Shown here: piece by piece, positions 9,131 to 60,031 of the stretch
Position numbering within the stretch: position 1 is the first letter of the stretch
Layout of the letters: the number at the start of each line of letters is the position of its first letter
Source: Kribbella albertanoniae
GTDB taxonomy: Bacteria > Actinomycetota > Actinomycetes > Propionibacteriales > Kribbellaceae
Assembly (NCBI RefSeq): GCF_004348455.1
Contig: NZ_SMKA01000001.1
Coordinates: 62,001-126,000 of the forward strand
Reading direction: 5' to 3'
DNA: 64,000 nt
Notes under the pieces: generated by a model
Seen by the model: only the letters and a program-made list of their open reading frames with translations
What the model was told of the DNA's origin: nothing
Databases searched by the model: none
Made by a program: the position numbers and the translations under genes

Positions 9131-10015
9131 TCACGGTGCCTCGAGGAGGGGGACAGGACCGCGCAGGTCGAGGACCGCGAAGCATCCAGGTGTCCGCTCG
9201 CGGTCGAGGATTTCCTGGCGGACGGGGACTGGCTGAGTCGCACCGTCTGCCGTTCCGCGCCGAAGGATCGTGCGCTCGGAGTGGCGCAGGTGATAGCGGC
9301 CGCTGACGGTGAGCGTTTCCTTGCCCGGGTCAAGCACCGAGAGCACGCGTTCGGTGTGTTCGCGCTGCGCTGTTCGCGCGTACGTCAGGTCGCTCGGGTC
9401 CCAGCCCGCGCCGTCGCCCAGGTAGGCGAGCAGCCCCGGAGTGGCCAGAGCCTCATGCGCGAGCACGACGTCAGGACCGGTCGGCGACGACAACAGTCCC
9501 TGCGCCTGCGCATCAGTCGTGAGCTCCGCGGGCCACCAGTTCCTGCCCGGCACACGCAGGCTGCGGTCGAGGCTGGCTGCTCCCGACAGCCAGCCGATCG
9601 CGTGGACGGGATCGGCGAGGCCGCCGTTGCCTGCGAGGACCACGCCGGAGCGGGGCAACAGATCGATATGGGAGAAGATCTGAACGGCGCCGTTGGCGTC
9701 ACGGGGGAGAGCGTCGATCAGGTCGTAGTTCTCGAGGCTGCCGAGCACCACGTAGAGCCGGAGCCCCAACTTGGCCAGCGTGCTGTTGAGCTCGTCGAGG
9801 GCGCGTGACTCGGCGCGGGTGCCGCTCCAGATCAGCCCGAAGTTGCCGAGCTGTACCAGCGAAGTGCACCCGCGCTGAGCCAGAATCGCCGCGGCTCCCC
9901 GCAGAAAACCGGCGTCGCCGTGCGCGTCGCCGATCAGCCCGACGAGTCCGCCCAGGACAGGGGCCGATGCCAGCTGCGCAGGGGCTACAGCCCTCGAAGG
10001 ATGAACGGTGGTCAT
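9131..10015 (-). CDS. Metallophosphoesterase-fold protein with degraded metal ligands
   Basis: 294 residues. Calcineurin-like phosphoesterase motifs can be traced but are altered: motif I is intact (GDAHGD near residue 28), motif II reads LGNFG in place of GDFG, motif III reads GSLENYD in place of GNHENYD, the AHE His is present, and the final GHxH reads GRYH. With the bridging Asp and the Asn-His pair lost, phosphatase activity is unlikely. The ATG at 10015 has AAAGGA eight bases upstream; an in-frame ATG at 10051 overlaps the topoisomerase stop (ATGA) and would add 12 residues. It lies between topoisomerase and the secretion proteins in a transfer-type operon; a binding role there is inference. 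Confidence 0.6.
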   Translation of the reverse strand: MTTVHPSRAVAPAQLASAPVLGGLVGLIGDAHGDAGFLRGAAAILAQRGCTSLVQLGNFGLIWSGTRAESRALDELNSTLAKLGLRLYVVLGSLENYDLIDALPRDANGAVQIFSHIDLLPRSGVVLAGNGGLADPVHAIGWLSGAASLDRSLRVPGRNWWPAELTTDAQAQGLLSSPTGPDVVLAHEALATPGLLAYLGDGAGWDPSDLTYARTAQREHTERVLSVLDPGKETLTVSGRYHLRHSERTILRRGTADGATQPVPVRQEILDRERTPGCFAVLDLRGPVPLLEAP

Positions 10016-41745: not shown

Positions 41746-43050
41746 TCAGACAGCCACCTCAGCAGTGGTCTCGTTCTGCGCCATGCTGCCGATCTCCACG
41801 TGGCGCGCGGCAATGTACATGCCCTCGCGATTGAGGTGCCGCGAGTAGCTCGAGTCGAGATAAAGCACCGGAATGTCGCCGGCCACCTGCAGGAGTGCCG
41901 GGTGCAGCAGCTCGCGGACCGGTCCAGCGCCGCCGCCGTAGACGTAGACGACCTCGGTCGTCGCGCCGGCCTGGGAGAGAACGTCACCGAATGCCGAGAC
42001 GATCTCATCGACCAGGTACCTCGCTTCATCGGTCACGAACCCGGCCGCCCGCTCGTGCCTACCCTTCTGCAGCATTGAGGGCTCGCCCTGGAGGAAGTCC
42101 GCGAGCTGCTTGCGTGACGTGAACTGCAATGTGGAGTCCGACTCGCTCATGCGTTCCATGGCGTTCATGAGCGCGGTGCCGTAGCCCTGCTCGAGCGTAA
42201 AGGCCGCCTCGGGGTTGAACCTGCCGTCGGTGAAGACCGGGAAGTTGACCGTGCCTTCACCGACATCGACGCCGATGGTGTTGCGGACCGCCACCAGGTG
42301 GGCAGCGGTGACGTCCTCGGCGAGGTGACCTTGGCGGCCGCGGAGATCGTCGAGAAGGGCCTGCGCGAGCGGCTCGCCCTTGTCGGTGATGGCGAACTGG
42401 GCCGACGCGCCTTCGGCCATCACCTGGACGTCGACGAACTCGAGACGAACCGAGACCGGCGTCGAGAAGTTCTTGATCGTGACCAGGTGCACCACTGGCG
42501 CGGCAGTGCCGGCAGCGCCCATGAACTCGGCGGCGTAGGTATGGCGGCGCGCGACGAACTCAGAAATCGGCAGAGCCAGACCGGCGCGAATCCTCACACG
42601 CAGCTCGCGGTCGGGAAGAGTGCCCGCTGCACGAACGTGGTCGCGCAGCGCCTTGGCTGCGAAGACGCCGAGCACGAGCACCTTGGCGAGTTCCTGGTCG
42701 ACCTTGCTGTGCTTGCCCAAAACCTCGAACTCGGTGAACTTCGACCCGCGCGCGTGGAGCGACGAGCGACCGAAGATGCGGCGGTCGCTGGCGGCGATCA
42801 GAGGAGTGGTCATCGTGCAGTCGAGCCGGTTGTAGAAATCATCGCCAGCCTTTGCGGCATCATCGCCGAGCACCTCGGCGGCGGTCGCGTCCGGGAGCGG
42901 CACCTTCGGGTTCTGACGGGTCGTTGACACGACCGCTGACGGGAGGTCGATCTCGTCGAAGACGCCGGTCTCTGTGTTGCGAATGACGCCCTTCACGTAG
43001 CCGTTGCCAACGTCGATACCGCCGGTAAGGGTAATGGTCTCTGCGCTCAT
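41746..43050 (-). CDS. parM: ParM-like actin ATPase (plasmid segregation)
   Basis: 434 residues from ATG 43050 (AAGGA eight bases upstream). Actin-fold nucleotide motifs in order: GGIDVGNGYVKGVI (phosphate 1), TIGVDVGEGTVNFPVF (phosphate 2) and VVYVYGGGAGPVREL (adenosine). Length and motif spacing fit ParM/StbA and Alp-type proteins, which polymerise to push plasmid copies apart. Encoded 57 bases after a ParR-like gene with a repeat region upstream, the normal parC-parM/R layout but with the adaptor first. Confidence 0.85.
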   Translation of the reverse strand: MSAETITLTGGIDVGNGYVKGVIRNTETGVFDEIDLPSAVVSTTRQNPKVPLPDATAAEVLGDDAAKAGDDFYNRLDCTMTTPLIAASDRRIFGRSSLHARGSKFTEFEVLGKHSKVDQELAKVLVLGVFAAKALRDHVRAAGTLPDRELRVRIRAGLALPISEFVARRHTYAAEFMGAAGTAAPVVHLVTIKNFSTPVSVRLEFVDVQVMAEGASAQFAITDKGEPLAQALLDDLRGRQGHLAEDVTAAHLVAVRNTIGVDVGEGTVNFPVFTDGRFNPEAAFTLEQGYGTALMNAMERMSESDSTLQFTSRKQLADFLQGEPSMLQKGRHERAAGFVTDEARYLVDEIVSAFGDVLSQAGATTEVVYVYGGGAGPVRELLHPALLQVAGDIPVLYLDSSYSRHLNREGMYIAARHVEIGSMAQNETTAEVAV

Positions 43051-43107
43051 GTCTGGATCCTTCTTTTGCATGGTCTGGTGATCTGCGGCACTGCGGCGGG
43101 CACTGGA

Positions 43108-43587
43108 CTACCGGCGGGTGGACGACATGATTTCGTCGATGGAGACCTGCTCCCGGACCACAGGCGCTTCGTGCTGCGCGGCTGTGGCTGCCGGTGCAGC
43201 CGCGGGTTCATCGGCGGACTCGACCGGCCCGGAAAGTCGATCCGCGGTCGAAGACGCATGGTCGTGTGCCTTTGCCGGCGGTGCATCGCTCAGCTGGTTG
43301 TGTGGCTCGCCTCGCTGAACGACGGACTCCGCCTGCGAAAGGTGGGCCGGCTTCGTTGCCGCGGTAGCGCCCGGCTGGGCTTGTCCGGGGCGGAGCAGTT
43401 GCTCTACCGGCTTGTTGACGACGTCGATGTAACCATCGCGCTCGATCGATTCGCGGATCAGCAGCCGGAGCGAGCCCGAGATGTTCTCTTGGAGGTCGAG
43501 CCACTGGTTCACCGAGACGTCTGCTGCGGGAACGCTCCAGCGAAGCCGCCGCGGATCTGCCGCCTCTGGCTGACTGGTCTTGGTCAT
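43108..43587 (-). CDS. parR: ParR-like partition adaptor
   Basis: 159 residues. The N-terminal part (RRLRWSVPAADVSVNQWLDL, SGSLRLLIRESIERDGYIDV) fits a ribbon-helix-helix adaptor; the C-terminal 90 residues are Ala/Pro/Glu-rich and disordered, ending in VSIDEIMSSTRR, which may contact the ParM filament. It should bind repeats upstream (43673-43711). The name rests on position next to parM and the short DNA-binding pattern. Confidence 0.7.
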   Translation of the reverse strand: MTKTSQPEAADPRRLRWSVPAADVSVNQWLDLQENISGSLRLLIRESIERDGYIDVVNKPVEQLLRPGQAQPGATAATKPAHLSQAESVVQRGEPHNQLSDAPPAKAHDHASSTADRLSGPVESADEPAAAPAATAAQHEAPVVREQVSIDEIMSSTRR

Positions 43588-43672
43588 CCGTGCACTCTCC
43601 TCGGCCTCGTCTACGGGACTCGGCCAGGTCGCCCCTGAGTCCTCTATCCGATGCTCATCCTATGAGTATTTA

Positions 43673-43711
43673 ATGGTCTTTTGCAAACCTTTTAAAGACC
43701 ATCTAAAGACC
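43673..43711. promoter_or_regulatory. Candidate parC centromere / par promoter repeats
   Basis: ATGGTCTTT (43673-43681) faces AAAGACCAT (43694-43702), with a third AAAGACC at 43705-43711. The stretch is AT-rich and lies about 85 bases upstream of parR, the usual place for the ParR-binding centromere and autoregulated promoter. Confidence 0.5.
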
Positions 43712-45073
43712 TATGCTCGTTCGGGGTCACCTCGGGGCCCGGCAAGGACGTCGATCAGACCCAGCCGAGCCCACCCGCCAGCTCCTGCCGTGGCCCGTTG
43801 ATGGTCTTGTCAGCGCTCCAATAGGGGACAGGCCTGGTATCCGGGCCGCCCCGGTTCAGGCCCTGGTCCAGCAGATGCCCAGCATCGACCCCGAGCGCAA
43901 CGCCTGACGTTTGTCGACGGGACCGGCGGCAGACCGCGATGCGCCCCGGTCCTCCCACAGCCCAGGGACGCACGCCATTAAGGCGAGATCTGGACGGGAC
44001 TGGGCCCATACGGAGACCGGATGAGTCCCGGGCGGCACTCCCAAGCCCTGCGCTCGGGGCCTTCTTCTTGATGCGCCCACGACTGCTGCGCAGTAGCTGT
44101 GAAGGGCCTGCGGCCCACCTCGGGCGCGATGCAACGAGTGCCGGAACGACAGCCGTCGTACGAGCGATGCCGACGACCGTCACGGATGCCGGCCCAAAAG
44201 AGCCCAATCGAACTCCGGCACACGATGAGGGGGCAAACCGCTGCGCGGCGCAACAGCCTGTGGATCCACAGCGCCAACCACCGCAGCGATAGAGCGTCGG
44301 ACCACCCTGTGGCGCCGCTGTGGTAGCCGCTAGCGGCAAGGTATTGCGGAGCCGTAGGCGGTTAGAAGACCCACCAAGGCGAGCATCCGTACAGACGGAG
44401 GAAGAGTGCGCCGCTCGTACCTCGCGAGACTGCGAAGACGCATCCGTACGGCGGTGCCACGCGCGCCGATCAGAGCGAACAGCATCAGAGGGCCAAGACC
44501 AGGCGAAACAGCACCGGACCGTACACGCGCTCCACGCAAGATGACCCAGAGTCCGGACCGGTACGTACCAACGATTTCGCCTGATACACCAGCGTTCCAG
44601 TCCTCCGCTAACGCTCCGGACGTGGAACAGAAGGCGGAGAAGAAAAAGGGCATAAGGGAACCTGGCAACACGTGTCCAGCAGACCTCGCTCCGCTCGGCC
44701 CTCTGCGCTGCGCTCCGAGGACGTGTTGGTCGGCATAGCCGACAGGTTCCAACGGTCGCTGGCGCTCCCTGACCTCGCTGCGCTCGGCATGCCCAGATGG
44801 CATGGATGAGCCGCCGCGCTCGTCGCCAGCAATCGATGAATGGATGCCCTGCGGGCGCATCGAGTGAGCGGCCGAGGCGACGACCTCGAGCTAGCTGAAA
44901 CGGCTCAGAGCCAGCAGAGCTGGCACGGGACGGAACAGGAGTAGTCGGGCCAAGCCCAGTTCCTGTACCCCTGAGGAGAGTTCCGTGAATCATGCCTCAC
45001 ACCAGCGCACGCACGTGACGCATCAGCTGAGAGCCGTCCCCTGTCGACCGGCTCGCCTTCGGGAGCGTGCCTG
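43712..45073. other. Gene-poor stretch with inverted repeats
   Basis: About 1.36 kb without a convincing gene. It holds a 14-base palindrome CTGTGGATCCACAG (44258-44271), two near-identical 18-base repeats of GACCTCGCTSCGCTCGGC (44682-44699 and 44771-44788), and the nested inverted repeat at 44657-44750. A 110-codon frame from GTG 44406 has a good GGAGGAAGA site but low-complexity basic composition. Long minus-strand frames here look spurious. Confidence 0.4.
44657..44750. other. Nested inverted repeats, possible oriT
   Basis: GGAACCTG (44657-44664) and CAACACGT (44666-44673) are matched by ACGTGTTG (44721-44728) and CAGGTTCC (44743-44750), with a small perfect hairpin GTCGGC-ATA-GCCGAC (44729-44743) inside the right arm. 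Nested repeats in a gene-free region are typical of nic-region structures, but no relaxase gene is nearby. Confidence 0.3.
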
Positions 45074-45256
45074 GTGACCACCGACGTCTCTCTGATCACG
45101 ATTGCAGTCGAATGCCCTGTACCTGACTGCGACTCGATCTTGCGCAGCCGCAACCTGGAGCACGTCGTGTATGAGCACTTGGTCGACAGACATGGATGCA
45201 TCGACACGGTTGCGCACGTGATGGCCTATGAGGTCTCAGCGTCAGCAGCCGACTAG
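45074..45256 (+). CDS. Small C2H2-like zinc-finger peptide
   Basis: 60 residues from GTG 45074 (GGGAG eight bases upstream). CPVPDCDSILRS ... YEHLVDRHGC has the CxxxxC ... H ... H spacing of a classic zinc finger. No family name. It precedes the macro-domain gene by 60 bases in the same direction. Confidence 0.5.
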   Translation: MTTDVSLITIAVECPVPDCDSILRSRNLEHVVYEHLVDRHGCIDTVAHVMAYEVSASAAD

Positions 45257-45316
45257 GGCATGCGCCGCCGGCCAGGCACGCCATCAGCCCGCTACCGATT
45301 GAATGCTGGAGTCATC

Positions 45317-45796
45317 ATGCCGATCATCTTGCAGCCCCCCGGGACGAACCTGTTCGGCAGTGGCGCAGACATCCTCGTCAATGCCGTCAACACACGAGGA
45401 GTCATGGGCGCCGGTCTCGCCCTGCAGTTCAAACAGCGCTACCCGAGCATGTTCGCCGCCTACCGCGATCGCTGCCAGTCCGCTCTCGTGTCCATAGGAT
45501 CCATCGACGTGCACATCGTGGAAACACACTCGCCGCGCACAGTGATGGTCGCGAACTTCCCCACGAAAGAACACTGGCGCGACCCATCGAAGCTCCAGTG
45601 GATCGAAGCGGGGCTCGTCGCCCTTCGACAGGTAATCATCGAATCCCAAGCCCGATCAATCGCCATCCCGCCTCTTGGCTGCGGCCTCGGAGGACTCGAC
45701 TGGAGCGACGTATCCAACCGCATCGTCGAATCTCTGACGCCGGTCGCCGAGGCCGGCGTCGACGTCCTCCTGTACCCGCCTGCCAGTCGCAACTGA
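45317..45796 (+). CDS. Macro-domain protein (ADP-ribose binding / hydrolase)
   Basis: 159 residues from ATG 45317 (GGAG upstream). The macro signature ADILVNAVNTRGVMGAGLAL near the N-terminus, then VANFPTKEHWRDPSKLQWIE and SIAIPPLGCGLGGLDW, match the DarG/TARG1-like branch that removes ADP-ribose from DNA or nucleobases. It is a stand-alone domain without a DarT toxin beside it. Followed 45 bases later by a SLOG-type gene, repeating the NADAR-SLOG pairing at 33.6-34.6 kb. Confidence 0.85.
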   Translation: MPIILQPPGTNLFGSGADILVNAVNTRGVMGAGLALQFKQRYPSMFAAYRDRCQSALVSIGSIDVHIVETHSPRTVMVANFPTKEHWRDPSKLQWIEAGLVALRQVIIESQARSIAIPPLGCGLGGLDWSDVSNRIVESLTPVAEAGVDVLLYPPASRN

Positions 45797-45841
45797 GCAG
45801 GACACGTCTCGCAGATGATTCATCGCACGAGAGGATTTACC

Positions 45842-46402
45842 ATGCCCCACGTCACTCCAGACGATGCCGCAGCGGCGCGAATCGTGAACAACCCGCGCAG
45901 CCCCGTGTACTCACACGTCGACCTGGTCACCGGCGCGCGCAGCTGGGACGACGAGATCGGCATGCGTGCCGCCTACCGCGAGGGCTGGCAAGGCTGGGGA
46001 CCGTCGGGCGTGACCAGCCCGCTGCTGGTGTCCGGGCACTGTCCGGCAGATCGTGACGGTCGCGGCGCGGACGCCATGGCTGAGATGTTGTGGCGGGCCG
46101 AGGGGTTCGAGGTTCTGCCCGTTCCCGCCGACTGGAAGACCTATGGCAAGAGGGCCGGCTTCATCCGCAACCAGCAGATGGTCGACCTCGTCGTGGCCCT
46201 GCTAAAGCAGGGCAGCGCCGTGCGTTGCACGGCCTTCCTCGACCTGTGCCGCAGGCCGCGATGCCCGCAATCGCACGACCAACAGCTCATGCCGCTGGTG
46301 GCAGGGCACTTCTCCCATGGCACCGTTGACTGCCGGACCCGAGCCATCCAGGCAGGCATCGAGACCTTCGACGTGATGCATCCCTCGCTGCGTCCGGTGT
46401 GA
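45842..46402 (+). CDS. SLOG-family nucleotide-binding protein, second copy
   Basis: 186 residues, ATG 45842 with GAGAGGA upstream. SGHCPADRDGRGADAMAEML, VPADWKTYGKRAGFIRNQQM follow the same order as the GAD ... W ... GxxRN motifs in the SLOG protein at 34055, though the two are only distantly similar. An N-terminal extension of about 60 residues is specific to this copy. Probably acts on a nucleotide or ADP-ribose derivative. Confidence 0.65.
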   Translation: MPHVTPDDAAAARIVNNPRSPVYSHVDLVTGARSWDDEIGMRAAYREGWQGWGPSGVTSPLLVSGHCPADRDGRGADAMAEMLWRAEGFEVLPVPADWKTYGKRAGFIRNQQMVDLVVALLKQGSAVRCTAFLDLCRRPRCPQSHDQQLMPLVAGHFSHGTVDCRTRAIQAGIETFDVMHPSLRPV

Positions 46403-46488
46403 TGTTGGAGCCGGACCGATAGGCCTACGCCCGCTGCGGACTCGAATTCAGAGCCCAAGGCGACGATCGGTTCGGGTCGTACCGGGGG

Positions 46489-47013
46489 CTATCTCTCCCG
46501 GGCGATCCCGTGTGCTTCGTCGTAGGCGGCCTGCAACTCTTTGCTAATCCGCCCCCTGCCTTGGGCATTGAAGCCGTTGTCCCGGCCCCAGGCCCGGATC
46601 GTCTCCCGTTCCTCGGGAGTCATCGCGGGGACCTCAGGCCCGGCGCTCCGACGCGGCTTCGGCGCTGCTTTGCGGCTGGCCGTGTCGATCCCGTGCGCTT
46701 CGTCGTAGGCAGCCTGCAACTCTTTGCTGATCCGGCCCATGCCTTGGGCATTGAAGCCGTTGTCCCGACCCCAGGCCCGGATCGTCTCGCGCTCCTCGGG
46801 AGTCATCTCCGGAACTTGCCGCTGCTTCCTCGGCTCGGCTCTGCGGCCCGCCTGGACGTACTTCTTCAGATCTGCCTCGAACTCGCGCCGCTCCTTGGCG
46901 GTGAGGTCGATCTCATACCACTCGTCACCGACCGCGAACGTGACTGTCGCGGCATTCGGACGCTTACTGAGGTCCGACTCGACGACGCTTCGCTTAGCCA
47001 TGGTGTCGACCAT
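46489..47013 (-). CDS. lsr2: Lsr2-family nucleoid protein with duplicated DNA-binding domain
   Basis: 174 residues (ATG 47013; ATG 47001 gives MAKRSVVES and is a natural alternative; neither has a strong ribosome binding site). The N-terminal oligomerisation domain (VTFAVGDEWYEIDLTAKE, KKYVQAGRR) is standard Lsr2. The C-terminal DNA-binding helix pair IRAWGRDNGFNAQGxGRISK ... AYDEAHG is present twice, 61 residues apart; normal Lsr2 has one. Lsr2 silences AT-rich horizontally acquired DNA; a plasmid-borne copy may restrain host or plasmid genes. Divergent from the RecJ-like gene. Confidence 0.9.
   Translation of the reverse strand: MVDTMAKRSVVESDLSKRPNAATVTFAVGDEWYEIDLTAKERREFEADLKKYVQAGRRAEPRKQRQVPEMTPEERETIRAWGRDNGFNAQGMGRISKELQAAYDEAHGIDTASRKAAPKPRRSAGPEVPAMTPEERETIRAWGRDNGFNAQGRGRISKELQAAYDEAHGIARER
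46503..46812 (-). repeat. Duplicated Lsr2 DNA-binding segment, 183-base period
   Basis: Copies start at 46503 and 46686 on the plus strand and are nearly identical for about 125 bases, with mostly single-base differences. Offset of 183 bases equals 61 codons, keeping the frame. Confidence 0.9.
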
Positions 47014-47153
47014 AAACCACTGACTGATCTATGAAAAGTCATTGGATGACGATTCCTATAGATTAAGCAAAGATGATGTGATAACAGCATCAAGAAGAGG
47101 TTCGCGCTGCTAAAATCGCATTAGACGATCATTCGATCAGCAAGGACATGATG
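47014..47153. promoter_or_regulatory. Divergent promoter region between lsr2 and the RecJ-like gene
   Basis: AT-rich region with small palindromes: GTCATTGGATGAC near 47038-47050 and GATCATTCGATC near 47127-47138, related to but weaker than the AGATARTCATT repeats elsewhere. Probably holds both promoters. AAGGA at 47142-47146 serves the RecJ-like gene. Confidence 0.4.
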
Positions 47154-49001
47154 ATGACCACAACCCCCACCTTCGTCGACTCCGATCGCCAGTGGCAGGG
47201 TGCCGGAACCAGGTCCGACCTGTTCGCGCTCCTGCGCCAGCGCAGGGGCTGGACCGACGAGTACCTCAAGGCCATCGACTGCGAGAAGCACGACGCGCTG
47301 AAGGACCTCGAAACTATGGTGGCCGCGCTTGAAGGCGTCCGTCGTTCGGGAGGCACAATCACCGTAGCTCCCGATTTCGACATGGACGGCATTGCCTCTG
47401 GCGTTCTCGGATTCGCGGGGCTCAAGGAGCTCGGGTTCGAGGTGAACCTCTACATCCCCGACTACGGCCGCGGGCACGACCTGACCATCGAGGACATCGC
47501 CGACATCCACCGGCACTACCCGGAGACGACCACGCTGCTCACCTGTGACGGGGGAGTGAACTCCCATGCCGGTGTGCGCGCCGCACAGGCGTTGGGGTGG
47601 AAGGTCCTGGTGACCGACCATCACCAGGAACTCGCTCCCGGCAGCGCAGCCGACGTGACCGTCGACCCGTGCCGCCTCGATGAGACCTACGCTCTGCGTG
47701 GGATCTGCGGCGCCCACGTTCTCTACCAGGTGCTGGAGGCCTATACCGCGGCACACCAGCCATCAAAGCGCTGGGCCATTCGCCTGCTACGCCTGTTCGC
47801 CGGCCTCGGTACCGTGTCCGACGTCATGCCCGTGCTGTACGAGAACAGGCAACTGGTGCGGGACTCGCTCTCAATCGCCCGGCTGCTGAGCGCGGCCGCG
47901 CCGAGGACGGTTCCGAACCCTTATGGCGGCTTGGACCCGAATCCCGACGGCATCGATGTCCAGAAAGCCACGCTCCTGCAGCTGCTTGCCGCACAGCCTG
48001 GTGAGCACGATGCGGCGTACCTGGCGGCGTTCGAGGGTTTCGCGGTCCTCTTGAAGGCCTTCGCGCAGGCAGGCAAGGTCCGAAGCGTCGACGACATCGA
48101 CGAAGGCTTCTACGGCTTCTATGTCGCCCCGGCGATGAACAGCCCCCGGCGGATCGGCACACCCTTGTCCGACTGCTTCGCCGTGTTCACGAGCCCGACC
48201 ACGAACCAGAAGCTCGCAGCGGCTCAACGGGTGATCGCGAACAACGAACGCCGCAAGGAACTGGTCGTCGAGCACCTGGCCGAGCTGGCCGACGGCGACC
48301 AGCCATTGGCGCCATGGGTCTACTTCTCTGCCGCCCCTGCAGGCATGTACGGCCTGCTGGCCAACCAGATGATGGAGAAGCACGGTCACCCGGTCGTCGT
48401 GCTGAACCGGCCGGCGACGCCGTCGGAGCCGGTGAGCGGGTCTGGCAGGGCCCCGGCCTGGTTCGAGATCATCGCCGCGCTCGAGGGTCATGAGGACCTC
48501 TGGGCCATCGGTCACCAGCAGGCGTGTGGCGTGAAACTGCGCACCGCCGCAGCGCTCGACAAGCTTTCGGCAATCCTCGAAAGCGCAACCCGCGCCGCAA
48601 TGCTCGCCGCCGCAGACTCGATCGGGCCGGTGAGTGACCTCATGCTCGGTCCAGGCCCCGAGTGCGACGCACCACTGACCGACGTCGAACCACTGATCGA
48701 GCTGGTGCGCCGTATCGAGACACTGCGCCCGTTCGGCCACGGCTTCGTCGAGCCGGTCTTCGAAGTCGCGCTCGACGGATTCAGGGTGGACCGGATCGGC
48801 ACCGAGAAGCAGCACCTGCGACTCGTCACCGGCACCGGTCTTGCCTGCCTGTGGTGGAACGCGGCGGAGGAGCACCATGACAGGCTTGCTCAGACCGCTA
48901 CCAGCCACGATCTGGAGGCGTTGCGCTTCCTCGGGAGACTCCAGCTCAACACGTTCATGGGCGAGACCCGTCTCCAGGTGGTCATCACGGAGCCGCTGTG
49001 A
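47154..49001 (+). CDS. RecJ-like DHH-family single-strand nuclease
   Basis: 615 residues; ATG 47154 gives the best spacing from AAGGA, although ATGs at 47148 and 47151 are adjacent. DHH motifs are intact: APDFDMDGIASG (74-79), TCDGGV, VTDHHQE (D155, H156, H157), and a DHHA1-like CGVKLRTAAALDKL near residue 470. RecJ degrades single-stranded DNA 5' to 3' and processes replication or recombination intermediates. Start of the replication block; its stop overlaps the protease gene's GTG. Confidence 0.85.
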   Translation: MTTTPTFVDSDRQWQGAGTRSDLFALLRQRRGWTDEYLKAIDCEKHDALKDLETMVAALEGVRRSGGTITVAPDFDMDGIASGVLGFAGLKELGFEVNLYIPDYGRGHDLTIEDIADIHRHYPETTTLLTCDGGVNSHAGVRAAQALGWKVLVTDHHQELAPGSAADVTVDPCRLDETYALRGICGAHVLYQVLEAYTAAHQPSKRWAIRLLRLFAGLGTVSDVMPVLYENRQLVRDSLSIARLLSAAAPRTVPNPYGGLDPNPDGIDVQKATLLQLLAAQPGEHDAAYLAAFEGFAVLLKAFAQAGKVRSVDDIDEGFYGFYVAPAMNSPRRIGTPLSDCFAVFTSPTTNQKLAAAQRVIANNERRKELVVEHLAELADGDQPLAPWVYFSAAPAGMYGLLANQMMEKHGHPVVVLNRPATPSEPVSGSGRAPAWFEIIAALEGHEDLWAIGHQQACGVKLRTAAALDKLSAILESATRAAMLAAADSIGPVSDLMLGPGPECDAPLTDVEPLIELVRRIETLRPFGHGFVEPVFEVALDGFRVDRIGTEKQHLRLVTGTGLACLWWNAAEEHHDRLAQTATSHDLEALRFLGRLQLNTFMGETRLQVVITEPL

Positions 49002-49899: not shown

Positions 49900-50340
49900 A
49901 TGGCTGTCATCGAGACCTGCGTCTACGCGGACGGCGAGCTGATGGCTCCGGCGCTGCTGCCGACGCTCAGGGCGAAATCCCGTCTGGCCTTTGCTAGCGC
50001 GAAGTACTTCCCAACCTTCGACATCGGCTACACCCACATCTACCGCATCACTGCCTGGGGTCTGTCCTGCGACAAGGCCGAGCGCCGTGCCAGGCGCAAG
50101 GTTGGCCGGTTCTACCGGAAGCTGAACCAGGTCGAAGGCTTCAGCACCATCACGCTCGACAAGCGTGAAGACTATGTGCGCAGCAACCAGAACTACTCGG
50201 TCACCTACGACATCGTCTATGTGATCGAGCGGACCGGCTCGCGCACCCAACGACCCGACGCCCCGTACCCGGAGTACCAGCACGATCTTCAGAAGCTGAC
50301 GTTCACGCCGGAGACGGCCGCGGTACTGATCCGGCGGTGA
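49900..50340 (+). CDS. Small protein, unknown
   Basis: 146 residues from ATG 49900, with AAAGGAG about ten bases upstream; GTG 49807 would overlap the protease stop and add 31 residues. Basic and soluble (KAERRARRKVGRFYRKLNQV, YSVTYDIVYVIERTGS). No recognised family. Ends 34 bases before a strong terminator. Confidence 0.6.
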   Translation: MAVIETCVYADGELMAPALLPTLRAKSRLAFASAKYFPTFDIGYTHIYRITAWGLSCDKAERRARRKVGRFYRKLNQVEGFSTITLDKREDYVRSNQNYSVTYDIVYVIERTGSRTQRPDAPYPEYQHDLQKLTFTPETAAVLIRR

Positions 50341-50752: not shown

Positions 50753-51218
50753 TGTACCACTTGCTCTGGTACACCTCACGAACCGCGGTCTGACCTGGGG
50801 AAACGCATGGCCTGGGATTCGACAGCACGAGTCACCCGTACCACTGCGAACATTCCCGTGGTACACCCGTTTGTCCTGGTCAGACGCGGATTTCGGCCCG
50901 ATGTACCAGAGGTACCACCGATCTGGCACCGTCCTCTAGCAGTGGGACGGCCGAGACACCGAGTCCCGCCGTCGCGGTGGCGTCGCAGGGGAGTGGGGCC
51001 CGGCTGAGAACCCCGGACTGGTCGCAGGCGCACCCGCAGGCATGCGCATGTCAGGTCTGAAATCTCTGGTACCTCTGGTACAGGGGCACTAAAACCCCAC
51101 CTGACCTGGCGTTCTGTCTGTACCACTTCAAATTTGGGAAGTGGTACAGCCCGGGTAGAAGCCCCGCAGAAACACGATCTGACCTGCGGAAACGCCTGTA
51201 CCACTTGACGTGGTACAG
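50753..51218. repeat. Iteron-like inverted repeats (TGTACCAC/GTGGTACA), candidate replication origin
   Basis: Twelve half-sites of GTACC/GGTAC, all but some extended to TGTACCAC or its complement, occur as six pairs: 50753/50767, 50838/50858, 50902/50911, 51067/51076, 51118/51139 and 51196/51210. The last two are perfect palindromic arms of 11 and 9 bases. TCTGACCTG-S-GGAAACGC occurs twice (about 50789 and 51179) between them. No gene fits here. Position in front of the primase-helicase gene fits a plasmid oriV. Confidence 0.65.
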
Positions 51219-51416
51219 CCTTCGCTGCCCCAGGGCGCCCAGGATCTGCCCGGGCCTGCCGCCTCCCACGTCCCGCCGCATCCGACGAGCGGACCCACTG
51301 GGACGAACTCGGGCGGCTGACGCCGCCCCCGGGTGCTGCTAGGGGCCCGCTCGACGTCGAGCAGCCCTGGCTGCACGGACTGCGCACTCCGGCCCACGCA
51401 GCCCGCCCATGGGTGC

Positions 51417-51462
51417 AGATAGTCATTCAGATAATCATTCAATGGATTGCAGATAATCATTC
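51417..51462 (+). repeat. Three direct 12-base repeats before the primase gene
   Basis: AGATAGTCATTC (51417-51428), AGATAATCATTC (51429-51440) and AGATAATCATTC (51451-51462), followed by GAATGACA. The same core forms the operators at 12525-12564 and 14226-14259. May be iterons, an operator, or both; about 100 bases upstream of the primase start. Confidence 0.65.
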
Positions 51463-51563: not shown

Positions 51564-53429
51564 ATGACCACTTCCGGCACGGGCAACGGCTCGTCCGTCT
51601 CGCCCGGCGATACCGGATCCTCGCCGCCGGTGACGAGAACCGCGACCCTGCTGACCGAGTTGCTCGACTTCTTCGACCGCCGCTCGCAAGCCGCGGCACC
51701 GCAGAACCTCATCGTCACTCATGTCACGACCACCTACTTGTCGGGCCTCGACCTGGACGCTGCACCCACCCCTCGGCTACTGGAGCAGGAGTTGCTTGCC
51801 GCCAGCAACGCGATCATCAAGGCCGAGAACGTCAAGATCCCCAAGGGTGACGGCCGGTTGCCACTGGCCAGACGCCTCTCCTGCTGGCAGATCGCGCAGA
51901 TACTCCTGCGCCTGCACCATGTCATCCGGATCGCGCCCAACGCGAAGGACACCGACCGCGAGTACGACCTACTCGCGATGTACAACGCCACCGGAGTCAA
52001 TCGCGGCACCTACACCGTGAGCGAAGACGACCTCCGCACGACTGCGAGACGCTACGACACCCAGCTCACCCTGAACGACTTCAAAGAGGTCCTCGCGATC
52101 CTGCGCGAGGACAGCCCTCGGACCCAGCGGTGTGCGCACCGGGATCTGCTTGCCGTCAACAACGGCATCGTCTTGTACAGCACAGCCGACCGCGACATCG
52201 AGATCGGTGGCCGGACGTTCCACTTCGAGGGCAAGAAGGTCCACCGCTTCGACCCAGCCATCGTCTTTCTCTCCAAGAGCCGCGTCGACTACGTCGAGGA
52301 TGCGCCTCCGCAGGTCATCACCCACCCCGAGGACGGGGACTGGGAGATCGTCGCCTGGCTAGAGGAAATGTTCGACCAGCCCGGCCAGGAAGGACTGGCC
52401 GATCTGATCTGGGAGATCATCGGCGCGATCGTCCGGCCCCATGTTCGCTGGGGCAAGACCGCGTGGTTCTACAGCGAGCGCGGCAACAACGGCAAGGGCA
52501 CGCTCTGTGCGCTCATGCGCAACCTGGTCGGCGACGGTACCCACACCTCGATCCCACTGTCCGACTTCGGCAAGGACTTCGCGCTGGAGCCACTCGTAAG
52601 GGCCAACGCGATCATCGTCGACGAGAACGACGTAGGAACACTCATCGACAAGGCCGCCAACCTCAAGGCGATCGTGACCGGCGACGTCATCCAGATCAAC
52701 CGCAAGTACCGGATGCCGATCGCGTTCCAGTTCCTCGGCTTCATGGTGCAGTGCCTCAACGAATTCCCGAAAGCCAAGGACAAGTCCGAGAGCTTCTACC
52801 GCCGGCAGCTCTTCGTGCCCTTCACAAAGAGCTTCAGCGGCTCAGAACGCAAGTACATCAAGGACGACTACCTACAGCGCACAGAGGTCCTCGAGTACGC
52901 GCTGTGGTACGCGATCAATCGTGCCGGAGCCGCAGATCCGGGGAACTACTACCAGCTCTCGGAGCCTGTGGCGACGAAGGCCGTACTCGCCGAGTACAAA
53001 GAGGTGAACGACCCGGTCAGGTCCTTCTGGGAGGAGCTCCGCGAGCTGTTCGTCTGGGACCTGTTGCCATTCCCGTTCCTCTACGACCTGTTCAAGAGCT
53101 GGTTCCTCCGGGCGTCCCCGTCCGGGTCTCTGATCAGCCGGCAACGATTCGTCTCCAGCCTCGTCGCCATCATCGACGGCGATTCCGACTGGCACTGCCC
53201 GGACAAGAACCGCAAGATCCGTCCCGGCCAGATGCTGAGCAAGCCCGAGCCGATGATCGCCGAGTACGAACTGAAGAGCTGGTACGCCCCTGCCTACAAG
53301 GGCACCGACCCGCTGAAGATCGGCAAACCCCTGCTCCAGGCGAGCTACCGCGGACTACTGCGCCATGCCCTGACCGCGACCGGTGCGGCGTCCCTTCCGG
53401 CTCCGGGAGCGAGCCCCGATGAGCCCTGA
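51564..53429 (+). CDS. SF3 primase-helicase (phage/plasmid D5 type)
   Basis: 621 residues from ATG 51564 (GAGG upstream; GTG 51507 possible). SF3 helicase motifs are clear: Walker A GNNGKGTLCALM (about 307-318), Walker B IIVDENDV near residue 350, and motif C LGFMVQCLNEFP ending in the conserved Asn. The N-terminal 200 residues would be the primase/D5-N part but show no catalytic motif I can assign. It should unwind and prime the element's origin. It sits directly after the iteron-like repeats and is followed by the DNA polymerase. Confidence 0.85.
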   Translation: MTTSGTGNGSSVSPGDTGSSPPVTRTATLLTELLDFFDRRSQAAAPQNLIVTHVTTTYLSGLDLDAAPTPRLLEQELLAASNAIIKAENVKIPKGDGRLPLARRLSCWQIAQILLRLHHVIRIAPNAKDTDREYDLLAMYNATGVNRGTYTVSEDDLRTTARRYDTQLTLNDFKEVLAILREDSPRTQRCAHRDLLAVNNGIVLYSTADRDIEIGGRTFHFEGKKVHRFDPAIVFLSKSRVDYVEDAPPQVITHPEDGDWEIVAWLEEMFDQPGQEGLADLIWEIIGAIVRPHVRWGKTAWFYSERGNNGKGTLCALMRNLVGDGTHTSIPLSDFGKDFALEPLVRANAIIVDENDVGTLIDKAANLKAIVTGDVIQINRKYRMPIAFQFLGFMVQCLNEFPKAKDKSESFYRRQLFVPFTKSFSGSERKYIKDDYLQRTEVLEYALWYAINRAGAADPGNYYQLSEPVATKAVLAEYKEVNDPVRSFWEELRELFVWDLLPFPFLYDLFKSWFLRASPSGSLISRQRFVSSLVAIIDGDSDWHCPDKNRKIRPGQMLSKPEPMIAEYELKSWYAPAYKGTDPLKIGKPLLQASYRGLLRHALTATGAASLPAPGASPDEP

Positions 53430-53514
53430 CACGACCAGCCCCGCTCAACGGCATGAAGTCGTGCCCGGACGAGATCCCGGTTCTGCAGACCCCTAGAACG
53501 AAATGAGAGACACG

Positions 53515-56500
53515 ATGCCTGCTACCCAAGAGAGGACCCAGACCCGGCGGCGACTTTCACCCGTCACAGCGGAGTCATCGCTGTTCACGTTCTATGACAT
53601 CGAGTCCTTGTCGAATGTGTTCAGCCTCGTCGCCTACACGCCGCGCCCGGACCCGGCCCGCGATGCACTCGAGGTCTTCTACCTCGTCGACGACGCCACG
53701 CTGGCCGCAGCGGTCCAGACCCGCTCGCTGGTCGAGGTGATCCGCACCGGCAACCCCGGGCTGCCACAGGTCGAGGTTTCGCTATACGACCTCCACACCA
53801 TCCGAGGCAACCTGCGGCTGGCGCAACTGATCGGGCTTTCCGACGCAGAGCAGGTGTGCGATCCGGAGCAGGACTCCTCATACCCCGGTGACTTGCGTCC
53901 CGTCTGTGACACCGACCCCAGCTTTGACCCGGCGGTCCACCCGTTCCTCGCCGGCTACAACTCCATGAACTACGACACGACCATGTTGGCGCTGTACCTG
54001 TCCGAGGTGTACTCCGACGTCGTCGACCACCGCGCCCGCCTGGCGTACGCACAGCAGCAACGCCGCAGTGCGAGTACGCCGCAGCGCGTCGCAGAGACCG
54101 AACAACTTCTCGTCGATGTCCTCGCACAGCGCCCGCAGTTCAAGCCGATCACCGCGGCCGCGTTGCGCGCACACAACGACGAGCTGTTCGATGCCAAGAA
54201 CATCGAGTACATGCCCGGTTACCTCGGCTGGGACACACCTCAGGGCAAGATCCGCCGCGCGATGCTCCAGTCCGGGCGTCACCTCGACGTCGCGCGGCTC
54301 AACGAGCTGCAGCGCAAGGTCGGGCTGAAGCGCCTGCTCGGCATGCTCGGGCACCAGATCAAAGAATCCGACAAGCTGGGCCACGACTCGATCATCACGA
54401 CGCTCGAGGAGCTCTACGAACTGCTGGCCTACAACGTCGCCGACTGTTTGGGCCTGGCCCAGCTGTTCGAGCACCCGCTGTACTCCAGCGCCTTCGACCT
54501 CAAGGCCGGCCTACTGACCCAATACCGCGAGACCGTCTTCAACCGCAACGAGACGGTACGCCGCGACCGGCTGACCATCGATTCGTCCTCGGCGAAGTTC
54601 GTCGGCCGCATCCTCGCCCCGCACACGCCCCTGAACGACATCGAGAAGGTCTCGTATGTCTACCCCGCCGCAGAAATTGCTCACGAGCGCGGAATCGCCC
54701 AGGTCAACGTGCTCGACGAATGCGTGCGGTTCTTCGAGGAGCACGTCGCCCCCGATCGCGCCGCCAACCCAGCACAGGCGAAGGCGCACACGGACTTCCT
54801 GCAGGTCGTCGCGTACTACCGGTCGATCGAGGGGCAGAACTTCAACGACTCCGAGGAGTACAGCGAGCTGTACGGACTCCCGGTCCGGTCGCTGAAGGAG
54901 ATCCCGAAGTCGCCCAACAACCTGCCCTACTTCCTGGCCGACGGGACCCCGTCGTCGTGCTTCGCGACCTTCTCCACCGGGGGGATCCACGGGGCCGAGG
55001 CCGATATCGCCGGGTTCAACAGAGACCTCGCGGAGCACCGCGCCAGCACGATGATGCTCGGCCTGGCCCGCCACCTCTACCCCGACGCGAAAGACTTCGT
55101 CGCCGAGGCGAAGCGCCAGCACAGCATGCTCGCCCTGCCAGACGGCACGTCAGTCGACAAGCGTCTCGTACTGCTCGGATCGGACCCGGCGAAGGTCAAG
55201 TACCGCAAACCCAAGAAGGACGACCCAGTCCAGGCAGAGCAACTGACGCGATCCCAGACGCAGATCCCTGACCCCGCAGGCCTCCTGGCGGTACAACGCC
55301 CGGACCACGAAGCCCTGGACGTTGCGATCACCGACAGCATGAGTCCCGGCGGAGTGTTCGTCATCCGGGGCAAAACGGTGCTGGCAAAGTCCGCGGCCAC
55401 GTCGGCCGAGTACCGGACGGAGGCGGCGAAGAAGGCACCGGAGCTGTTCGTTGCCAAGGAGGACGCGTCCACCAAGCTCCACCCGAAATACGCCCGGACC
55501 TCGACCGGCCACGTCACCCACGAGGACTTCACGAGCTACTACCCGAACCTGCTGCGCAACATGAGGGCCTTCTACAACCCCGAGCTGGGAGAAGACCGCT
55601 ACGCAACGATCTTCTTCGACAAGGAACGACTCGGACGCGAACTCAAGCAGCCCGGCCTCCGCGCGGCTGAGAAGGAACGCCTGACCACCTTGCGCAACGG
55701 GACGAAGCTCATCCTCAACGCCGCGTCCGGCGCAGGCGATGCATCCCACAAGAACCCGATCCGGATGAACAACCGGATCATCTCGATGCGCATCATCGGT
55801 CAGCTCTTCAGCTGGCGGATCGGCCAGGCACAGACGCTCGCCGGTGCCCGGATCATCTCCACGAACACCGACGGTCTCTACTCCGTACTGGACCGGGAGA
55901 TCAACGACCAGGTGCTCGCCGAGCAGGCAGCACTGATCGGGGTCGACATCGAACCCGAGCCGATGTTCCTCATCAGCAAAGACTCGAACAACCGGCTCGA
56001 GCTCACCGCACCCCGAGCAGAAAGCACGCTCGCCGAAAGCCAGATCATCGCTGCTTCCGGCGGCACGCTGGCCTGCCATGTGGGACCCCGTCCGGACAAG
56101 TCACTGGCCCACCCGGCCGTCATCGACTTCGCCCTGGCCCAGTACCTGCAGGTGGTCGCCACCAGGGGAGAGGCCGCACTGTCGGAGGCCTTCGACACAG
56201 ACCTCGGGCGCAAGCTCATGGGCGAGGCGATCGACCCCGAGGACCCGCTGCGAACGGCGCTGCTGTTCCAGAACGTCATCGCCGCGTCGCGCGGCTCCAT
56301 CACCTACCCGTTCGCGGCGGCCCCACTGGACCCCACTGCAGGCGACGAGGGCCAGCGGATCGTGGACCCGAGGCCGCTGCAGATGGTCAACCGGGCATTC
56401 GTCGTGCGTCACGGCACCGACGGTGCGGTCAGCCTGCTCAACGCCGGCGCCTGGAAAATCCCACCGGCCACCCAGGCGAAACGCCGACAGGGTGCTCAGC

Positions 56501-56787
56501 GCCCGGTACCGGACGAGATCGCCACATCGATCCTCGCCCATCACGGCTGGGCCGCGACCCGCTGGATGAACTCCCAGAACCCCCGTCTGACCCTCATCCC
56601 CGAAGACCGAGACGTCTCCACCCGCAAAATCAACGGCATCGACCCCACCTGGTCCATGGTCATCTGCAACGACGACCTAACTGCCCTGGGACCACCCGCC
56701 CTCATGGCAATCATCGAGGCACTCGACCTCGACGTGTACACCCAGATGCTCGCCGAGACGTTCACCAAAAACTGGATGAACACCTAG
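53515..56787 (+). CDS. Family B DNA polymerase
   Basis: 1090 residues from ATG 53515 (GAGAG upstream; ATG 53503 adds four residues). Exonuclease motifs: FYDIES (Asp28, Glu30), NSMNYDTTML and YNVADCLGL. Polymerase motifs: DFTSYYPNL (motif A, near 671), KLILNAASGAG (motif B, Lys731) and ISTNTDGLYS (motif C, Asp786). Order and spacing match replicative family B enzymes; motif C reads NTDG rather than DTDS. A B-family polymerase on an actinobacterial element is unusual and suggests phage-like autonomous replication. Follows the primase gene by 85 bases. Confidence 0.85.
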   Translation: MPATQERTQTRRRLSPVTAESSLFTFYDIESLSNVFSLVAYTPRPDPARDALEVFYLVDDATLAAAVQTRSLVEVIRTGNPGLPQVEVSLYDLHTIRGNLRLAQLIGLSDAEQVCDPEQDSSYPGDLRPVCDTDPSFDPAVHPFLAGYNSMNYDTTMLALYLSEVYSDVVDHRARLAYAQQQRRSASTPQRVAETEQLLVDVLAQRPQFKPITAAALRAHNDELFDAKNIEYMPGYLGWDTPQGKIRRAMLQSGRHLDVARLNELQRKVGLKRLLGMLGHQIKESDKLGHDSIITTLEELYELLAYNVADCLGLAQLFEHPLYSSAFDLKAGLLTQYRETVFNRNETVRRDRLTIDSSSAKFVGRILAPHTPLNDIEKVSYVYPAAEIAHERGIAQVNVLDECVRFFEEHVAPDRAANPAQAKAHTDFLQVVAYYRSIEGQNFNDSEEYSELYGLPVRSLKEIPKSPNNLPYFLADGTPSSCFATFSTGGIHGAEADIAGFNRDLAEHRASTMMLGLARHLYPDAKDFVAEAKRQHSMLALPDGTSVDKRLVLLGSDPAKVKYRKPKKDDPVQAEQLTRSQTQIPDPAGLLAVQRPDHEALDVAITDSMSPGGVFVIRGKTVLAKSAATSAEYRTEAAKKAPELFVAKEDASTKLHPKYARTSTGHVTHEDFTSYYPNLLRNMRAFYNPELGEDRYATIFFDKERLGRELKQPGLRAAEKERLTTLRNGTKLILNAASGAGDASHKNPIRMNNRIISMRIIGQLFSWRIGQAQTLAGARIISTNTDGLYSVLDREINDQVLAEQAALIGVDIEPEPMFLISKDSNNRLELTAPRAESTLAESQIIAASGGTLACHVGPRPDKSLAHPAVIDFALAQYLQVVATRGEAALSEAFDTDLGRKLMGEAIDPEDPLRTALLFQNVIAASRGSITYPFAAAPLDPTAGDEGQRIVDPRPLQMVNRAFVVRHGTDGAVSLLNAGAWKIPPATQAKRRQGAQRPVPDEIATSILAHHGWAATRWMNSQNPRLTLIPEDRDVSTRKINGIDPTWSMVICNDDLTALGPPALMAIIEALDLDVYTQMLAETFTKNWMNT

Positions 56788-58036: not shown

Positions 58037-60031
58037 ATGACAACTCTCGCCACAACCCCGCCCTCGGCCCCTCGCCTCATGCCGCATCAGCAACACACCA
58101 TCGACTTCATCGTCGACCACCCGTTCGCCGGTATCTGGGTAGACGTCGGCGGCGGTAAGACGCTCTCCGTCCTCAGCGCCCTGCAACGCATTCGGCCCAT
58201 CGGCCACATCCTCGTGATCGCCCCCATCGCGGTTGCCCGCTCCACCTGGATCGACGAGATCGAAGACCGAGGCTTCAACATCCGCACCCGGTCATTGATC
58301 GTCGACGAACGCGACCGGAAACTCTCGCGCGAGCGACGCGTCCAACGGTTCCGGCAGGTGTTGTCCGACCCGCCGACCATGTACTTCATCAATGCGGATC
58401 TGCTCACCCAGCCGTCCCAGCAAACCAAGGTGATCACACCGGTAGTGAGCAAGAAGGCAGACCCGGTCATGTCTGCGGAGGCGGCCCAGATCCTGCAGTT
58501 GGTGCGAACCCGAAGGATGCTCAACTACGACGAACTCGTCACCGAATACCGCGACCTGGCGGCCACAGATCCCGGCCGCTCGACCCCTGCCAAGTCCAAG
58601 ATTCACACCTGGGTGCAGGAGCTACGCAACGCTTCCCTGGTCACATCGGCGTCGTGCGCCTGCCGCACCTGCTCCGGAGCCGGCTGCCCCGAATGCAGGT
58701 TCGGCCTGGTCGACCAGATGCCGATCCAAGACCTGAACGGTCAAAAGACCCTCATCTGGCCGTTCCAGACCATCATCATCGACGAGAGCCACGCATTCAG
58801 ATCCCACTCCTCAAACCGATTCAACGCACTCAAGGCCGTGCGCCCAGCAGTCACCCGGCTGATCGAGCTCACCGCCACGCCAGCGCCGAACGGCCTCGAG
58901 GGCCTGTGGAGCCAGGCCTACCTCCTCGACCAAGGCAGGGCTCTGGGGACCGACATCGACGCGTACCGCCAACGCTGGTTCACCCCGACGGTCATCCCGG
59001 ACTCCAAAGCGCCCCCGAAATGGAAGCCCAAGCCGGGCGCCGAGCAGGAAATCCAGCAGGCCATCGCACACCTCGTGATGAGCGCACAGAACACGTCAAT
59101 CAAGCTGCCGCCACTCATCGTGGAGGACGTCCACGTCCGCCTACCTCCCGACCTGATGACTGCCTACCGGGAGTTCAAGCGCGACCTCATCGTCCAGATC
59201 GTCAGCCAAGCGGCGCTGCAGAAAGCCGAGCTCGCCTACGCCGACTGGCTGCGAAACTCCGCCGAGCCCGAAGCCCAAACCATCCGCACACACCTGGCGA
59301 CACTGACCGGCGACCTACGCGACGCCTACACGACGTTGCGCCAAGCAACGATCGGCAAGTTCCTCCACCAACCCGACGAGCACCTCGTCCGCACAGTCGT
59401 CGCCGACAACCGCGCCGTGCTGATCAGCAAGCTCATGCAGTTCGCCTCAGGCACCCTCTACACCTCCGATCCTGACGACCCGAGCACCAAAGGCCAGTAC
59501 GAGATCATCCACGACGAGAAGATCCAGAAAACCTCGCACCTGATCCGCCAGAACGCCGGAGAACCCGCGCTGGTCGCCTATCACTTCAAGTCGGACAAGG
59601 AACAGCTGCACACCCGTCTGAACAAGACAGGCATCCCTACCGAGGTATTCGACGGCTCGCGCACGATGATCCGCCGCTGGAACGCCAAGGACATCCCGGC
59701 GATGCTGATCCACCCGGCTTCGGCCGGCGCCGGCCTGAACCTCCAGCGCGGCGGCTCCACGCTGATCTGGTACACGCTGCCGTTCCTGCTCGACTACTAC
59801 CAGCAGACCATCGGCAGGCTGTACCGCCCCGGGCAGACCAAGCCCGTGAAGGTCTACCGGATCATCACCGCCGGCACGCAAGACGAGCGCATGCCTGGGG
59901 TCTTGTCCACCAAACGGCAGATCCAGGACAGGCTCCTCCGATACGTCGACGTCGACAAGGCTCTACTCGCCGCACTCGACGACGAGATCCGAAGTGACCT
60001 CAACGACCTCTGGTCCACCCTGCGGCTCTGA
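58037..60031 (+). CDS. SNF2/SF2-type helicase
   Basis: 664 residues. Walker A DVGGGKTLSV (Lys41), DEAH-box variant IIIDESHAFRS (Asp249), motif III ELTATPAPNG, and motif VI QTIGRLYRPGQ are all present, as in phage and plasmid SNF2-like helicases. A Cys cluster (CACRTCSGAGCPEC, around 207-220) is an inserted zinc module. It should translocate on double-stranded DNA and may remodel or repair plasmid forks. No strong ribosome binding site precedes ATG 58037; an AAGGAGG lies 38 bases upstream. Confidence 0.85.
   Translation: MTTLATTPPSAPRLMPHQQHTIDFIVDHPFAGIWVDVGGGKTLSVLSALQRIRPIGHILVIAPIAVARSTWIDEIEDRGFNIRTRSLIVDERDRKLSRERRVQRFRQVLSDPPTMYFINADLLTQPSQQTKVITPVVSKKADPVMSAEAAQILQLVRTRRMLNYDELVTEYRDLAATDPGRSTPAKSKIHTWVQELRNASLVTSASCACRTCSGAGCPECRFGLVDQMPIQDLNGQKTLIWPFQTIIIDESHAFRSHSSNRFNALKAVRPAVTRLIELTATPAPNGLEGLWSQAYLLDQGRALGTDIDAYRQRWFTPTVIPDSKAPPKWKPKPGAEQEIQQAIAHLVMSAQNTSIKLPPLIVEDVHVRLPPDLMTAYREFKRDLIVQIVSQAALQKAELAYADWLRNSAEPEAQTIRTHLATLTGDLRDAYTTLRQATIGKFLHQPDEHLVRTVVADNRAVLISKLMQFASGTLYTSDPDDPSTKGQYEIIHDEKIQKTSHLIRQNAGEPALVAYHFKSDKEQLHTRLNKTGIPTEVFDGSRTMIRRWNAKDIPAMLIHPASAGAGLNLQRGGSTLIWYTLPFLLDYYQQTIGRLYRPGQTKPVKVYRIITAGTQDERMPGVLSTKRQIQDRLLRYVDVDKALLAALDDEIRSDLNDLWSTLRL

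Follow-up and report, generated by a model that had tools for sequence, protein, structure and literature searches.

What is the function of a 466-bp array of twelve short half-sites that lies in front of a helicase gene in Kribbella? The array is found in the window, by which we mean the whole 64-kb stretch of DNA that was analysed (bases 62001-126000 of a 203,280-bp contig). The window lies wholly within a mobile element. The contig starts with a tRNA-Thr gene, whose 3' region is repeated over 42 bp, without mismatch, 173,778 bp further on (the two repeats occupy contig bases 100-141 and 173878-173919). A tyrosine integrase gene ends approximately 90 bp before the second copy, and genes for a MobL relaxase and a TraG-type coupling protein are present as well. 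Together these features identify the 173,778 bp as an integrated, probably conjugative element. The initial annotation of the window proposed a probable replication origin at the array. Comparison of the layout around the adjacent helicase supports this proposal, and we consider it very likely that the array is the replication origin of the 174-kb element and is tied to the adjacent helicase.

Exactly 12 GTACCA half-sites, arranged in six pairs as originally described, are present at positions 50753-51218 (Table 1). The whole window contains 30 GTACCA words (both strands) and the 203-kb contig 72, and the array is the sole place in the contig with at least four sites inside 600 bp; one stray GTACCA is located nearby, at position 50274. 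The word GTACCAC occurs 12 times in the window, eight of these in the array, as compared to a mean of 3.2 and a maximum of 8 in 100 shuffles of the window. Only the outer four of the six pairs are inverted; each of the inner two consists of direct repeats with a spacing of 9 bp, and the two pairs face each other. Since the inner pairs are direct and point toward each other, the array forms one mirror-symmetric unit in the order A-B-C, C'-B'-A', with six sites in each half. Both perfect palindromes of the initial annotation are real: the one at 51118-51149 has 12-nt arms which are 100% complementary with 8 nt between them, the one at 51196-51218 has 9-nt arms with 5 nt between them. The second motif noticed earlier, TCTGACCTG(G/C)GGAAACGC, does recur twice and is located, in the form CTGACCTGGGGAAAC, between pairs. 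Alignment of the loci shows that many arrays have kept the second motif CTGACCTGGG-AAAC, and also a GGGGTATATAAA block next to C'.

Table 1. Positions of the array, its parts and neighbouring genes in the window.
Feature	Position	Strand	Remark
Actin-like (ParM/AlpC-like) partition protein	41746-43071	-	PHROG match clear; Pfam match below cutoff
RecJ/DHH exonuclease	47148-49001	+	Conserved upstream neighbour
Whole array	50753-51218		12 half-sites (TGTACCAC-like), mirror order A-B-C, C'-B'-A'
Pair A	50753-50773		Inverted half-sites, 13 bp start to start
Second motif, copy 1	50789-50806	+	TCTGACCTGGGGAAACGC; kept between pairs in aligned loci
Pair B	50837-50865		Inverted half-sites, 21 bp start to start
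Second motif core, inverted	50875-50886	-	CCTGGTCAGACG on + strand
Pair C	50902-50918	+	Two direct half-sites 9 bp apart, toward centre
Centre between half-arrays	50919-51065		Most variable length among relatives; GC-rich here
Pair C'	51066-51082	-	Two direct half-sites 9 bp apart, toward centre
Second motif, partial copy	51100-51109	+	CCTGACCTGG
Pair B'	51119-51148		Inverted half-sites, 22 bp start to start, within palindrome 51118-51149
Second motif, copy 2	51178-51195	+	TCTGACCTGCGGAAACGC
Pair A'	51197-51217		Inverted half-sites, 13 bp start to start, within palindrome 51196-51218
AT-rich stretch	51416-51462		Three 13-bp repeats CAGATA(A/G)TCATTC, between array and helicase
D5/SF3 helicase	51564-53429	+	Proposed initiator; 621 aa from ATG 51564; ORF open from 51507
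DNA polymerase of the element	53503-56787	+	1094 aa; family not settled
SNF2/DEAD-type helicase	58037-60031	+	Replication module

Minus-strand ORFs overlap the array, the longest of them encoding 216 aa. GC content by codon position is 0.67/0.69/0.62 in this ORF as compared to 0.61/0.44/0.86 in the helicase gene. Because the ORF is devoid of the third-position GC bias of local coding sequence, the array is likely gene-free, in line with the initial annotation. The AT content of the centre between the half-arrays is 0.30, as compared to 0.35 in the window overall. In 22 of 24 loci the centre is AT-richer than its locus, in some of them by little; the exceptions are the window and L042. The AT-rich stretch between array and helicase gene is a candidate unwinding element or helicase promoter.

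The gene that follows the array had been annotated as a primase-helicase. Matches to DUF5906 and TIGR01613 (144 bits, cutoff 108.7) identify a helicase, for which a good AF2 model was obtained (mean pLDDT 86.4). Among solved structures, the SaPI5 primase-helicase is closest to it (7OLA chain D; Z 37.4, rmsd 2.9, 371 residues aligned); further structural relatives are pox D5/E5 (Z about 24), NrS-1 (16) and papilloma E1 (11). A primase domain was not recognised in it; the fold comparison barely covered the part before residue 102. Bacillota relatives of the helicase, about 530-560 aa in length, have a shorter N-terminus. Taken together, these two points indicate that 'primase-helicase' is an inherited name, of which the helicase part holds. 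From the secondary structure of the model, residues ~484-606 are read as a C-terminal winged helix, with a predicted recognition helix at residues 526-537 and a predicted wing at approximately 541/542-560. The likely DNA binder is this domain and not the N-terminal primase domain suggested earlier.

Helicase matches were obtained in 6 of 38 genomes of the genus; one is marginal (E 3.3e-4, 25% identity). Three of the genomes have a helicase of 98-99% identity and a fourth has one of 83%; the Kribbella catacumbae helicase is 98% identical to that of the window. A census of 394 genomes of the class retrieved the helicase only from its own genome and from one relative with 36% identity, whose 4.3-kb locus contains no array-like word cluster.

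Conservation of the layout was investigated in 48 loci, each with a related helicase (the window, L001, L002, L053 and L005-L048). A word-free scan searched for a pair of direct copies spaced by 8-9 bp that faces another pair on the opposite strand, with inverted pairs outside; it was designed after arrays had been seen and was controlled by shuffles. Scores of at least 14 were obtained in 36 of the 48 loci, as compared to a maximum of 12 in 288 shuffled sequences. L023 also has sites at the right spacing, so that 37 loci show the layout; within the flanks examined, no such array was found in the other 11 loci, among them pGKT2 (L002), which was searched over its whole length. The inner spacing is 9 bp in 33 of the 36 scored loci. 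These loci are not independent, L005 being nearly identical to the window and L016-L018 and L026 being close relatives. The sites are also found in L050-L052, three further Kribbella copies that are nearly identical and were excluded from the counts. The 27 loci that use GTACCA would together be expected to hold 324 sites; 316 of these were found with no more than one mismatch, 304 of them being exact. Their spacings are narrowly kept: 13 bp for pair A in 24 of 25 loci and for pair A' in 22 of 24, 21-23 bp for pair B and 21-22 bp for pair B'. The centre measures 116-175 bp across 26 measured GTACCA loci. A helical phasing of the centre length was considered and dropped; it was apparent only in 22 related loci (p 0.003), and p was 0.055 for 18 unique values, 0.70 for 11 representatives and 1.0 for 10 loci with other words.

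Initiators often autoregulate, and the majority of GTACCA loci have their array no further than about 1 kb upstream of the helicase gene. The array might accordingly be an operator, at which the helicase or another regulator controls the replication operon. However, the same scaffold is found 5.8 kb before the helicase start in L028, and 7.4 kb and 9.0 kb after it in L044 and L038, which argues against a mere helicase operator. In all 12 viral loci scoring at least 14 in the scan described below, the array is downstream of the helicase, and a 466-bp mirror of 12 sites exceeds ordinary operators in size. We therefore consider an operator improbable, although autoregulation may be a second role of the array. 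The helicase is present in every locus by construction, since the loci were chosen by it. When the 174 ORFs called on the contig were compared with 46 loci, no ORF but the helicase was common to all; the polymerase was matched in 30, the SNF2 helicase in 28 and RecJ in 26 loci. In L022, which has an array, there is no other match among the ORFs found in three or more loci. The array thus recurs near the helicase in loci that have no other gene in common with the element, which suggests that array and helicase travel together and argues against a mere promoter operator.

The same loci bear on a further explanation, that the array is the centromere of the actin-like ParM partition system of the element. 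A gene for a ParM/AlpC-like actin, next to a small gene, is present in the element, and systems of this type bind repeat arrays (PMC4446434). Yet the array lies about 8 kb away from the parM gene, and the scaffold is kept in L022, L028, L030, L031 and L034, in which no parM was detected (tblastn, E 1e-6, in the flanks examined, 5.5 kb in L034). Moreover, the word of L022 differs together with the wing of the helicase. A centromere is very improbable in our view.

The layout is conserved beyond the GTACCA word. In 10 of the 37 loci with the layout, some of them in Clostridia, other words occupy the same positions: TGTCCC in Leucobacter (L022), GTACCC in Plantibacter, GTAACG in a Bacilli MAG (L030), CCTACC in a Clostridia MAG (L034), and GTCTCG, GTGAGA, ATAGAC, TGTCCA, GTGCAA and GCAGTT in the remaining six. 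The array is far from the helicase start in three of these ten loci. Half-site forms for comparison are TGTACCAC in Kribbella and ATGTCCCGA in Leucobacter. The L022 helicase is 68% identical to the GTACCA group in its core and only 26% in its wing (residues 543-557). The largest drop of identity along the protein is at residues 542-560, a segment that follows the predicted recognition helix (0.79 within the GTACCA group versus 0.26 to L022). L022 is one clear case of the wing differing along with the word. The words of L034 and L028 share TACC with the group, and their wings resemble that of the group (0.53 and 0.55, respectively), with cores that are less identical (0.49 and 0.56). An equally similar wing (0.55) is present in L035, where the scaffold is absent, and the rule relating wing and word is thus not clean.

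With respect to the origin, the following mechanism can be envisaged. The origin would serve the excised, circular form of the element, or, in relatives that live as plasmids, would be in permanent use. The SF3 helicase would read each TGTACCAC half-site through its C-terminal winged helix. At one site for one subunit, the six sites of a half-array would place the six subunits of one hexamer, and the facing halves would bring two hexamers head to head. The hexamers might then open the duplex within the array or beside it, either in the centre or instead at 51416-51462, and the polymerase and the accessory helicase of the element, probably with host proteins, would copy outward. Going further, the layout may be a molecular ruler, in which each of the 12 half-sites holds one subunit of a double hexamer and which is kept across actinobacterial, clostridial and phage-like elements as word and matching wing swap together. 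We put this forward tentatively, with rather less than even confidence. If true, the family would be a naturally mutated set for studying a protein-DNA recognition code, and would also offer a way to watch the placement of an SF3 double hexamer on duplex DNA.

An inflection of GC skew had been proposed as a check for the origin. There is none at the array in the window, the cumulative minimum being near 61 kb and not 51 kb, and the check lends the origin no support; for an element integrated in the chromosome, as here, window skew carries no information. The array is also present on a complete 639-kb circular plasmid of Streptomyces, together with helicase, polymerase, RecJ, Lsr2 and ParM genes. 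Its GC skew has no turn at the array, with a detrended minimum at 194 kb and maximum at 537 kb. Only one GTACCA cluster is present in this plasmid, as in the 203-kb contig, in a count that would miss a region without the word. Two TnsA-like transposition gene sets are located upstream of the array in the Streptomyces plasmid NZ_CP109461.1 (L001:193-3952 and L138:33890-40531), one directly before the array and the other, with TniQ, beyond the Lsr2-RecJ genes. In the circular Gordonia plasmid pGKT2 (L002), genes for the helicase, the polymerase and a RecJ-type protein follow the same RecJ-helicase-polymerase-helicase order. No array was found in its whole 182 kb, in which the densest word is a simple 9-bp tandem repeat. 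Having the helicase but no array, pGKT2 must have an origin that looks different.

Arrays of this kind also occur in viral sequences. From a viral collection, 49 stretches were chosen by DNA pattern alone (an inverted GTACCAC pair), no protein being used. Four of them (L145, L160, L161, L174) contain 8-11 GTACCA sites within 600 bp in an array-like order, and a fifth (L169) has six sites along one strand. In tblastn searches at 1e-3, none of the 49 stretches, most of which are partial contigs, matched the helicase. The arrays of L160 and L161 adjoin genes of another 'DNA primase/helicase' family (PHROG 8841, E 6e-91 and 6e-110) that show no BLAST similarity to the helicase of the window; in L145 and L174 no helicase was recognised among the ORFs scanned. 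GTACCA arrays therefore occur away from this helicase, and the word is not private to its family. The arrays beside PHROG 8841 genes support a function of such arrays in replication; unrelated initiators may share one word.

In a separate scan of 80 viral and 5 phage loci, in which an inner spacing of 8-10 bp was allowed, 12 of the 85 loci scored at least 14 and 20 scored at least 12; 85 shuffles reached a maximum of 12 (one shuffle). All 12 high-scoring viral loci have the array just downstream of a helicase with 26-30% identity, and their contig sizes suggest that they are PICI-like. No word clusters were found in phage bIL310 and in one faecal phage contig. Streptococcus phage Pika has nine GTAACA sites near its helicase gene and no scaffold score of 9 or more. 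In Lactococcus phage phi31, a TGTTCCAT array in the origin region (ori31) spans approximately positions 9579-9881 of AJ292531, beside the pri31 3' end. Like the Kribbella array it has direct inner pairs on either strand (++ and --), 8-9 bp apart; it differs in its irregular outer sites and scores only 11. The viral arrays and the one beside pri31 also argue against an oriT, a clt or another conjugation site. Such a site might be expected from the MobL relaxase and the TraG-type coupling protein of the element, but the relaxase gene is about 48 kb off, and we give this explanation hardly any credence.

As a replication origin, the array is of an already known kind, namely the origins of self-loading D5/SF3 helicases in P4, PICI/SaPI and SCCmec. 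PICI origins have an AT-rich centre flanked by two sets of iterons, and plasmids can be replicated by rep-ori segments (PMC6092414). The Kribbella locus resembles PICI/SaPI in that short iterons form two opposed sets on either side of a centre, in its initiator of the D5/primase_Cterm type and in that the closest solved structure to its helicase is the SaPI5 protein. By analogy we propose that the array works like a PICI origin. It differs in several respects: the array is upstream of the helicase gene, whereas the PICI origin is directly 3' of rep; its 12 sites form two sets of six, the inner ones phased at 9 bp; its centre is GC-rich (AT 0.30 versus 0.35 in the window), whereas that of PICIs is AT-rich; no primase domain was recognised in its helicase; and it is carried by a 173,778-bp element with relaxase, coupling protein and tyrosine integrase, not by a satellite. 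Because of the upstream array, the GC-rich centre and the non-satellite element, we do not file it as a PICI origin.

P4 has 8-bp type I iterons, TGTTCACC, and 8-bp iterons with direct pairs 9 bp apart are likewise found in the Kribbella array. Among the annotated crr repeats of P4, TGTTCACA/TGTTCACC, two copies are direct and 9 bp apart and the others inverted. The P4 alpha protein is a primase-helicase fusion. In P4 the sites are split between ori and crr, approximately 4.7 kb apart, whereas one array holds all sites found in Kribbella. SCCmec, with a direct-repeat origin, encodes the same helicase type. The isolated C-terminal domain of Cch2 binds iterons, and the repeat contains TACCACTT, which is close to the Kribbella TGTACCACTT; there are only three iterons, downstream of cch2 (PMC7581432). 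SCCmec has an A-family polymerase, with MP as the primase, whereas the Kribbella polymerase is not recognisably A-family. Further background is given in PMC10061031, PMC7145576 and PMC5719810.

What appears to be new, judged from the comparison of sequences, is the occurrence of such an origin in large actinobacterial elements and in a circular 639-kb plasmid, with a regular twelve-site mirror and swapped words. No description of such an origin for large actinobacterial elements was found in full-text searches of open-licence papers. If the reading as an origin is true, a defined origin and initiator become available for the large integrative elements of actinobacteria and for one 639-kb plasmid at least. 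An origin layout reported to be private to phage satellites would thereby be extended. Ten alternative words on one layout make specificity swaps and the idea of six sites per hexamer directly testable. Vectors for hard-to-engineer actinomycetes are a possible yield.

Several observations concern the neighbouring genes. The polymerase gave no Pfam match and no PDB sequence match; its AF2 model is poor (mean pLDDT 65.8), and the fold search returned no match below E 0.001. By eye only, family-B-like motifs (DFTSYYPN, TNTDGLYS) and a possible proofreading domain are seen. A conserved block near the array, at 41746-47013, comprises the actin-like gene, its small neighbour, a weakly SLOG-like gene and an Lsr2-type silencer. 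It recalls prophage CGP3 of Corynebacterium glutamicum, which also encodes an actin-like protein (PMC4446434). Upstream of the actin gene, at 43660-43715, an AT-rich stretch with repeated GGTCTTT/AAAGACC words was seen by eye; a repeat search at 10 nt gave no direct repeats there. This stretch is possibly a centromere, distinct from the array. Beyond the window, an ORF of 1852 aa is located on the minus strand (L060:914-6472, corresponding to window coordinate 84914-90472). It matches Rpb1 domain 2 above the cutoff and, weakly and just below the cutoff, Rpb2 domain 6, and it contains the motif DGDFDGD. The ORF may encode a single-chain two-barrel RNA polymerase of the element.
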